Part shown: in pieces, positions 38,575 through 41,350 of the stretch
Numbering within the stretch: the stretch's first letter is position 1
Layout of the letters: every line of letters starts with the position of its first letter
Assembly: GCF_034314105.1 (NCBI RefSeq)
Contig: NZ_JAVIWJ010000001.1
Span: forward strand, 3,349,501 to 3,413,500
DNA from: Pseudomonas sp. AB6
Lineage (GTDB): Bacteria; Pseudomonadota; Gammaproteobacteria; Pseudomonadales; Pseudomonadaceae
DNA length: 64,000 bases
Direction: 5' to 3'
Position numbers and translations under genes: made by a program
The notes under the pieces: generated by a model
What the model was told of the DNA's origin: nothing
Seen by the model: only the letters and a program-made list of their open reading frames with translations
Database searches by the model: none

Positions 38575-39612
38575 ATGAAACTGATACCAGCCCAACTCGG
38601 TAAACACCTCCAGAGCGCTCTGGCGCCCGTGTACGTTGTCAGCGGTGATGATCCTTTGCTGTGTCAGGAAGCAGCGGACGCTATTCGTACTACCGCGCGC
38701 CAGCAAGGCTTTGACGAACGCCAAGTTTTCAGCGCGGATGCCAATTTCGACTGGGGCACGCTGTTACAGGCCGGCGCCAGCATGTCGCTGTTCGCGCAAA
38801 AGCGTCTGCTGGAACTGCGCTTGCCCTCGGGAAAACCCGGCGACAAGGGAGCTGCGGCGTTTATCGAATATTGCTCGCGCCCTCCAGAAGATACGTTGCT
38901 ACTGATCAGCGTACCCAAGCTCGACGGAAGCGCGCAGAAAACCAAGTGGGGCAAGGCACTGATCGAGGGGCCACACACTCAGTTCCTGCAAATATGGCCA
39001 GTGGATGCCAGCCAGTTGCCGCAATGGATTCGACAACGTTTATCCCATGCAGGATTGTCTGCCAGCCACGACGCGATCGAACTTATCGCCGCACGGGTTG
39101 AAGGCAATCTGCTTGCTGCGGCCCAGGAAATTGAAAAGCTCAAGCTGATGGCGCAAGACGGCCAGATCACCGTCGAAACTGTGCAGGGCGCGGTAGCCGA
39201 TAGTGCAAGGTTCGATGTTTTCGGTTTGACCGATGCAGTGCTCAACGGCGAAGCAGCCCACACATTGCGCATGATAGAGGGCTTGCGTGGCGAAGGAATT
39301 GAGCCGCCTGTCATCCTGTGGGCGCTGGCTCGTGAACTTCGGCTATTGGCTAATCTGGCCTTGCAGATCAGTCAGGGCACCCCTCTAGACAAAGCCTTTA
39401 GCCAAGCCCGACCACCGATCTGGGACAAGCGCAAACCGCTGATGAGCAAAGCGTTGCAACGTCACTCCGCACAACGCTGGAGCCAACTGCTGATGGACGC
39501 GCAACGCATTGACGCGCAGATCAAAGGCCAAGCGCCGGGTTCGGTCTGGAGCAGCCTGACCCGTTTGGCCCTATTGATGGCGGGTCAACGGTTGAGTTTG
39601 CCGGCTGAATAG
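38575..39612 (+). CDS. holA: DNA polymerase III delta subunit
   Basis: A 345-residue clamp-loader subunit that opens the beta clamp during DNA replication. It opens MKLIPAQLGKHLQSALAPVY followed by VVSGDDPLLCQEAADAIRTT, the family N terminus; the AAA-like middle and the collar domain with ALARELRLLANLALQISQG and LTRLALLMAG are complete. It is cotranscribed after lptE with a 42-base gap. Confidence 0.95.
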   Translation: MKLIPAQLGKHLQSALAPVYVVSGDDPLLCQEAADAIRTTARQQGFDERQVFSADANFDWGTLLQAGASMSLFAQKRLLELRLPSGKPGDKGAAAFIEYCSRPPEDTLLLISVPKLDGSAQKTKWGKALIEGPHTQFLQIWPVDASQLPQWIRQRLSHAGLSASHDAIELIAARVEGNLLAAAQEIEKLKLMAQDGQITVETVQGAVADSARFDVFGLTDAVLNGEAAHTLRMIEGLRGEGIEPPVILWALARELRLLANLALQISQGTPLDKAFSQARPPIWDKRKPLMSKALQRHSAQRWSQLLMDAQRIDAQIKGQAPGSVWSSLTRLALLMAGQRLSLPAE

Positions 39613-39782: not shown

Positions 39783-39938
39783 ATGAGCAAGCCAAAGCGG
39801 CCGAACAAGGCCAAATCCATCATCGCCCAGCCGTTGTTCCGCAGTCGGCATGAACCCGCCGGCAAGGGCAAAGGCAGCTACCGCCGCGAAGCCTTCCAGT
39901 CTAAAAGCTGGGAGGCTTCTTACTTTCTGGCGGCTTAA
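39783..39938 (+). CDS. arfA: Alternative ribosome-rescue factor ArfA
   Basis: A 51-codon gene. The product reads MSKPKRPNKAKSIIAQPLFR, then SRHEPAGKGKGSYRREAF and QSKSWEASYFLAA. The core PLFRSR...GKGKGSYRR is the ArfA signature: ArfA enters the A site of ribosomes stalled on nonstop mRNA and recruits RF2 to release the chain when tmRNA fails. A 12-bp hairpin (39888-39919) within the last third of the frame matches the device by which E. coli arfA yields a truncated, tmRNA-tagged product. It stands alone, 170 bases after holA. Confidence 0.9.
   Translation: MSKPKRPNKAKSIIAQPLFRSRHEPAGKGKGSYRREAFQSKSWEASYFLAA
39888..39919 (+). promoter_or_regulatory. In-frame hairpin in arfA (self-limiting cleavage or termination site)
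   Basis: GAAGCCTTCCAG (39888-39899) pairs with CTGGGAGGCTTC (39908-39919) over 12 bp, with a single G-U, around an eight-base loop; TTACTTTCT follows. The stem spans about codons 36-46 of the 51-codon gene. In E. coli arfA an equivalent stem is cut by RNase III or ends transcription, making a nonstop mRNA whose product is tagged and degraded while tmRNA works. Confidence 0.75.
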
Positions 39939-40021
39939 AAACATCCCTACATCTCCCGAAGCCCCATATGCAGGGCAAGCATGATAAGGTTTGCGTCTGT
40001 TGGAACACCCTGGACCTAAGC

Positions 40022-41350
40022 ATGCCCTCTAGCTTTTCCCGTCAGTTGCATTTTCGCCAACTGATGACCGTCTCTAGCTTCATCCTGTTAGTTGCCTGCG
40101 CAGAAAAACCAACTGCTGCCGATGCCACGCCTATTCAAATTGCGAACATACCGCCGGTCGGGACCACTAAGACCCAAGCTTCTATGGCAGCTGGCTCAAC
40201 TGATTTCGATATTCAGCCGACCATTAGCTTTAGTGACTGGGAAGCCGGATTTCGTGTCGATGCAATTAAAGCCGGTATTAAGCCTAACTTATTCGATCAA
40301 GCCTTCGCGGGTGTAATTCCGGACATGAGCGTGGTCAAGGCTGATCGAAGCCAGCCCGAGTTCACTCGACCGGTGTGGGAATATCTCGACGGCGCTGTCT
40401 CCGCAGCCCGTGCGCGTAAAGGCCAAGCCCTTCTGGCGCAATACGCTGATGTGCTGCAAGCCATTGAGCAACGCTATGGCGTCGACCGCCAGTCACTCGT
40501 GGCGATTTGGGGTATGGAAAGCAACTTCGGCCAGTTTCAAGGCTCTCAGTACGTGATTCGTTCCCTGGCGACATTGGCCTACGAAGGCCGTCGCCGCGCA
40601 TTCGCACAGGATCAATTGTTGGCAGCGCTGCAAATTCTCCAGCATGGTGACATCCAACCCGCCCAGATGCTGGGTTCTTGGGGCGGAGCAATGGGACAGA
40701 CGCAGTTTATTCCTACCACCTATAACAGATATGCCGTGGATTTCGATGGCGACGGCCGCCGCGACATCTGGAATACCCCAGCCGATGCATTAGCGTCGAC
40801 TGCACATTATTTGCAGAGCTCGGGCTGGCAATTCGCTCAGCCGTGGGGTTTTGAAGTGCAGTTAGGTCAAAATTTTGATTATGCATTGGCCGACGCATCA
40901 ACCCGTAAAACAGTTGCCGAGTGGCAGCAGATGGGATTGAAACTACCAAATGGCGGTGCACTTCCGGCCAATGTGGCGCAATTGCAAGCGGCGCTGTTGT
41001 TGCCTGCCGGATATAAAGGTCCGGCGTTTCTGGTACTGGATAACTTCCGTGCAACGCTCAGGTACAACAATTCCTCGTCTTACGCCTTGGCGATTGGCTT
41101 GCTGTCTGAGCGTTTCAGCGGAGGCGGTTATGTTCTCGGCAGCTGGCCGCGAAGCGACCTTCCGCTAAACCGCTCTGAGCGCATAGAACTGCAAACATTG
41201 CTCTCATCCCGCCAATACGACGCAGGCGCTCCAGATGGAATTATCGGGGCTAATACGCGCAAAGCAATTCGTAGCGCACAACAGGCATATGGTTGGCCCG
41301 CCGACGGTTACCCAACGCATGAGTTGTTGAACAGTTTGCGTAAGCCGTAA
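40022..41350 (+). CDS. sltB3: MltB-family lytic transglycosylase with peptidoglycan-binding domain
   Basis: A 442-residue lipoprotein (signal with FILLVACAEK lipobox, Cys near residue 27). The SLT_2 catalytic domain has VAIWGMESNFGQFQGS with the catalytic Glu, WGGAMGQTQFIPTTY, and an EF-hand-like loop AVDFDGDGRRDIW. A C-terminal PG_binding_1 domain (SRQYDAGAPDGIIGANTRKA) follows. It cleaves glycan strands, leaving 1,6-anhydroMurNAc. By order it matches PA3992 (SltB3/SltH), recalled. The ATG at 40022 is preferred; 39968 would lengthen the N terminus ahead of the signal. Confidence 0.9.
   Translation: MPSSFSRQLHFRQLMTVSSFILLVACAEKPTAADATPIQIANIPPVGTTKTQASMAAGSTDFDIQPTISFSDWEAGFRVDAIKAGIKPNLFDQAFAGVIPDMSVVKADRSQPEFTRPVWEYLDGAVSAARARKGQALLAQYADVLQAIEQRYGVDRQSLVAIWGMESNFGQFQGSQYVIRSLATLAYEGRRRAFAQDQLLAALQILQHGDIQPAQMLGSWGGAMGQTQFIPTTYNRYAVDFDGDGRRDIWNTPADALASTAHYLQSSGWQFAQPWGFEVQLGQNFDYALADASTRKTVAEWQQMGLKLPNGGALPANVAQLQAALLLPAGYKGPAFLVLDNFRATLRYNNSSSYALAIGLLSERFSGGGYVLGSWPRSDLPLNRSERIELQTLLSSRQYDAGAPDGIIGANTRKAIRSAQQAYGWPADGYPTHELLNSLRKP

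Follow-up and report, generated by a model that had tools for sequence, protein, structure and literature searches.

The question raised by this locus is how a Pseudomonas arfA gene with an in-frame hairpin is brought under tmRNA control, and what the few codons encoded beyond the hairpin do. The gene lies at 39783 to 39938 on the + strand of the window (the whole 64,000-nucleotide stretch analysed), and its translation, MSKPKRPNKAKSIIAQPLFRSRHEPAGKGKGSYRREAFQSKSWEASYFLAA, is 51 amino acids long. The protein scored 34 bits on the Pfam ArfA profile (PF03889), above the cut-off of 25.5, and carries the PLFR and GKGSY core, which places it by sequence in the family of alternative ribosome-rescue factor A; no NCBIfam match was found for it. 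The 51-codon gene with an ArfA core put forward in the original prediction was thus confirmed by translation and by the Pfam match. The core, PLFRSR...GKGKGSYRR (codons 17-35; 39831 to 39887, + strand), ends directly 5' of the hairpin, and its Lys-Gly-Lys-Gly-Ser-Tyr stretch showed zero amino-acid changes on a 127-leaf tree. The TAA stop codon (39936 to 39938, + strand) is located 3' of the hairpin.

The host genome is 5.06 Mb in size, and the closest arfA relatives are all from Pseudomonas, where 193 of 199 genomes carry one. The gene was undetected in four near-complete Pseudomonas genomes (G026, G043, G146 and G161), and all sampled genomes listed for genus g95 of the same family are without it. 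Two copies about 1.4 kb apart are present in two genomes of one genus (G380 and G391; loci L224 and L238), and at L238 both copies have the hairpin and an -LAA end. In-frame stops in some relatives appear to be normal stop codons that the search read through. From recognisable sequence, we take the upstream neighbour (38575 to 39612) to be holA-like and the downstream neighbour (40022 to 41350, or starting at 39968) to be lytic-transglycosylase-like.

The hairpin occupies 39888 to 39919 on the + strand (codons 36-46) and is the proposed stem of an intrinsic terminator. Its arms, 39888 to 39899 and 39908 to 39919, were present as originally predicted, and folding added a thirteenth pair (U-G) that closes a 6-nt loop. 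The hairpin energy was -21.8 kcal/mol; this 32-mer had a z of -5.2, and the complete gene one of -2.9. The 3' coding part of arfA folded at -30.8 kcal/mol, against -15.0 +/- 3.7 in synonymous recodings drawn from local codon usage, none of which (0/300) was as stable as the real sequence. The same comparison of 184 distinct relatives, almost all Pseudomonadaceae, with their own synonymous recodings gave a median z of -2.3, and every z was negative. In nearly all relatives the stem begins where the GKGSYRR core ends. In the window gene it ends 5-6 codons before the stop, in keeping with the roughly five codons first estimated. No family for the arfA hairpin was found in Rfam.

Covariation of the stem, named in the original prediction as a check for Pseudomonas, was borne out by compensatory changes across Pseudomonadaceae. 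Among 24 distinct family hairpins of equal length, 94% of the pair cells held standard pairs, and double-changed cells numbered 15, compared with 3.0 +/- 1.5 in shuffled sets (0/500 reaching the observed count). The signal was lost when one arm was slid by one to three bases. In relatives with loops shorter by 3, 6 or 9 nt the stem was re-paired each time. The basal stem is nearly invariant and is therefore uninformative on covariation.

Directly 3' of the GC-rich stem base (GCC...GGC) lies the U-tract TTCTTACTTTCT (39917 to 39928, + strand), the first three bases of which (T, T, C) are also stem-paired; this is the sequence arrangement of an intrinsic terminator. In intrinsic terminators, the RNA 3' end usually falls within the U-tract. 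There is reportedly a precedent in Neisseria gonorrhoeae, where the arfA hairpin is said to act as an intrinsic terminator that gives non-stop mRNA (Schaub et al. 2012); the likeness to the gene studied here lies in the in-frame terminator. A simple terminator scan picked the hairpin site, in a window in which about one chance site is expected from the same scan. To count T in the U-tract, a hairpin finder was anchored to the local stem, and the ten bases that follow its final G-C pair were scored. In the family, this tract held 6.29 T per ten bases, compared with 4.49 expected for the same peptides with random codons, and only 6 of the 184 relatives fell under the expected count. In the window, the tract is interrupted, with 7 T in 10, and 57 of 1000 sequences in its own null (~6%) did as well; this is marginal alone, so the case for a terminator rests on the family.

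The T excess is accompanied by a bias among synonymous codons. Where the stem ends, Ser is encoded by TCT in 125 of 165 TCN cases (flanking genes predict 11%), and two codons further on Phe is TTT in 150/150 (25% expected); the relatives share descent, and these per-sequence counts overstate their independence, which is corrected by tree-based counts for the tail only. The Phe of the PLF core in the same genes, a control matched for ancestry and base composition, is mostly TTC (158, with 26 TTT). A textbook terminator is found in the divergent relative L231 (AAAAAGCCTCTCAG..CTCAGAGGCTTTTATTTTTTT), with matching forms in L235, L117, L244, L246 and L247, which are also divergent. The original prediction had left the choice between RNase III and termination unsettled; silent-site selection in the U-tract favours termination, and we consider it likely, from these sequence patterns, that termination is the main route to non-stop arfA mRNA. 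The RNA 3' end is predicted at about 39923-39927 (within codons 47-48), where the peptide would end approximately ...WEASY. RNA 3'-end data for P. aeruginosa have been published, and the main text of that report does not mention arfA by name (PMC8297930).

The remaining codons show a second feature. The full-length protein of the window ends in -YFLAA, that is, with the C-terminal Ala-Ala of an SsrA-like degron, and codons L49-A50-A51 (39927 to 39935, + strand) would give any read-through protein an encoded SsrA-like -LAA end. An -AA end was present in 160 of 184 distinct relatives (-LAA in 109, -MAA in 33), compared with 8/367 (-LAA in 0/367) among ordinary proteins, sampled from this genome as open frames 120 codons long or longer. 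Codon changes were counted on a tree of the neighbouring holA-like gene (127 leaves). In the last two codons there were 16 changes at positions 1-2 (non-silent) and 61 at position 3 (silent), compared with 114 and 46, respectively, in codons -5 to -3 (Fisher p = 2e-13). The scarcity of non-silent changes in the last two codons indicates that Ala-Ala is held at the protein level. The residues before it drift, yet mostly stay hydrophobic, and -AA is retained despite long unrelated tail extensions (L186, L189, L196, L204, L210, L213 and L226).

The carboxylate of a C-terminal Ala-Ala is the key signal recognised by ClpXP, and the end of the window protein resembles the SsrA degron in this carboxylate, in the Leu before it and in the aromatic residues just upstream (PMC7652416). 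Unlike the SsrA tag, it is encoded in arfA, not added by tmRNA, and is without the SspB-binding part. We think it rather probable that the Ala-Ala acts as a ClpXP-type degron. Residues other than Leu can precede Ala-Ala, and this may weaken the degron: QAA, NAA, RAA and KAA ends also occur, and in f37, a family of the same order (probably Halomonadaceae), -AA ends 20/20 arfA genes, mostly as -RQAA.

These variant ends lend some support to a reading in which the terminal Ala-Ala has a role other than that of a degron, for example in how full-length ArfA works on the ribosome, in making termination at the stop codon efficient or as part of an element at the nucleotide level. We regard this as unlikely, though the strongest of the alternatives. 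A role in the folded core is disfavoured, as the distance between the core and Ala-Ala differs by more than 10 residues among relatives. In E. coli, ArfA that lacks its tail is still active (PMC8012679). Both Ala third codon positions vary freely, which argues that Ala-Ala is no nucleotide element. One specific nucleotide-level cause, pairing of GCNGCN with the upstream CGCCGC, was rejected because any of the four bases occurs at the Ala third positions.

Some relatives lack the Ala-Ala end. In one Pseudomonas clade (L161-L163, L190-L208) its place is taken by -RAC, and a few further proteins differ too. In the -RAC clade the arfA tail is about 12 codons longer, and the stop codon lies within a TAAGGT motif upstream of the next gene; this motif, GCATGCTAAGGTA, is found downstream of arfA elsewhere in the genus and may be a -10 box of the next gene. 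In the order with Enterobacteriaceae- and Pasteurellaceae-like genomes, -AA occurs in 4/24, and the remaining ends are varied and often hydrophobic. Short arfA tails ending in -MAA or -KAA are seen in three families of the order with Enterobacteriaceae-like members (L309, L310, L315 and L316), where they perhaps represent an independent gain of Ala-Ala.

Alternatively, as in E. coli, the hairpin could serve chiefly as a substrate of RNase III, with the stem cut to give a non-stop mRNA and the U-rich sequence incidental; this we consider improbable. RNase III is the main route for E. coli arfA and for several others (PMC3989581; PMC8012679), and in relatives from f37 (L269-L285) the stop codon is enclosed by long hairpins that are better suited to RNase III than to termination. 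The stem of the window is 13 bp and those of the family mostly 11-16 bp, short of the approximately two helical turns looked for in an RNase III substrate; in most species it is ~11-14 bp, reaching at most 16 with weak outer pairs. As short stems are still cleavable, stem length only makes RNase III less likely. Cleavage gives no reason for TTT in 150/150 or TCT in 125/165, and a cut within the stem would remove W43-S46. According to a 2026 review, known RNase III substrates are longer than the P. aeruginosa hairpin (PMC13159725). Within f37 (L269-L285, L111 and L112), most genomes have the arfA stop inside a ~20-bp hairpin (z about -5) with its 3' arm downstream. This hairpin would suit removal of the stop by RNase III, and looks like a second non-stop arfA architecture.

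It is very improbable that the hairpin is simply an arfA transcript terminator overlapping the gene end by chance, with a mostly normal full-length product and weak tmRNA control, since the stem starts right past the GKGSYRR core in nearly all relatives, termination there would precede the stop codon, and selection for an SsrA-signature tail speaks against a stable full-length product, even though protein-level selection on the last two codons shows full-length protein to be produced at a rate that matters.

Termination within the gene therefore remains our preferred reading, and it has parallels in characterised systems. In E. coli, both RNase III and termination at the hairpin leave arfA mRNA without a stop codon, and its product is tagged by tmRNA and degraded (PMC3989581; PMC10107115). 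The window gene shares with it the ArfA core and an in-frame hairpin before the stop (PMC3989581; PMC8012679). The E. coli hairpin, when folded here, was longer and further downstream, with its main stem in the SGKKVNHFF/TTGL codons, and is cut mainly by RNase III. Truncated E. coli ArfA is active and the full-length protein unstable (PMC3989581; PMC8012679), and two C-terminal Asp residues stabilise the latter (PMC3989581). Its tail is long and hydrophobic and ends in ...LLLSGAC, without Ala-Ala, unlike that of the window gene. For P. aeruginosa arfA (PA3990), the passages found in the review already predict a hairpin and propose tmRNA-type control; they describe a hydrophobic C-terminus, leave the cleavage route open and make no mention of a terminator or an Ala-Ala end (PMC13159725). 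In Bacillus subtilis, a Rho-independent terminator in the coding region of brfA has been shown to yield non-stop mRNA under tmRNA control; the BrfA protein is unrelated to ArfA, and the stability of its native C-terminus is not addressed in the passages found (PMC6881298).

With non-stop arfA known in E. coli and other proteobacteria, and the P. aeruginosa hairpin already predicted, the core idea is not new, and 'self-limiting' describes E. coli-type control. Two findings add to what was known, namely that silent sites point to a terminator in Pseudomonadaceae and that the codons beyond it encode an Ala-Ala end under selection; neither was found in the literature searched, which did not cover the hairpin survey of Schaub et al. 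2012.

The same genome holds the partners that such control would call on. A full-length tmRNA is present with the tag ANDENYGQEFALAA, which ends in ALAA, and ClpX is encoded. RF-1-domain proteins number three: two have the size of release factors, and the third that of ArfB. It is highly likely that the arfA mRNA is non-stop and controlled by tmRNA. From the gene, the hairpin and its covariation, the silent-site selection in the U-tract, the selection on Ala-Ala and the partner genes computed here, we infer the steps of actual termination, tagging and degradation as follows.

In a first lock, the in-frame hairpin and U-tract would end most arfA mRNA at about codons 46-48, without a stop codon. 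Ribosomes would stall at the mRNA end, where tmRNA-SmpB would normally rescue them and add the ALAA-ending tag, and the ArfA so tagged would be degraded. In a second lock, read-through transcripts would give full-length ArfA ending ...YFLAA, whose Ala-Ala carboxyl end would mimic the SsrA tag and lead to uptake by ClpXP. As both locks would destroy ArfA, the stable protein would come only from ribosomes that tmRNA had failed to rescue: untagged ArfA free of Ala-Ala (ending approximately ...WEASY) would be made only if tmRNA were missing or overwhelmed, and the stalled complex would then be released by ArfA-RF2 or ArfB. We hold this whole scheme, in which both the tagged product of terminated mRNA and the read-through product with its own SsrA-like end are degraded unless tmRNA fails, to be fairly probable. 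The original prediction is supported in part. Its main inference, of an arfA mRNA made non-stop by a conserved in-frame hairpin and of ArfA therefore held down by tmRNA, is well supported by the compensatory changes that keep the hairpin, by the presence of tmRNA and by the mechanism established in other proteobacteria, with degradation as its inferred part.

The effect of truncation so close to the stop, which had been posed as a question, now has a candidate answer, namely the loss of the SsrA-like Ala-Ala end. Truncation at the predicted 3' end would cost only some four residues, most of them in the putative degron. In structures of E. coli ArfA on the ribosome, 46-48 residues are modelled (PMC8012679), and when the two cores were aligned, the modelled region ended near residue 41-42 of the window protein. 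By this alignment, the truncated window ArfA would keep the whole structure-modelled region.

For P. aeruginosa, where the review had left the route to non-stop arfA open, the silent-site selection points to transcription termination. Across Pseudomonadales, we lean towards two independent locks on arfA, tmRNA tagging and an encoded copy of Ala-Ala, that converge on ClpXP. The pattern of change in the few codons past the terminator shows them to be translated and selected, against the idea of a tail that is never made. If this is true, the encoded Ala-Ala would be an instance in which a gene imitates the tmRNA tag, closing the last leak in a fail-safe switch.
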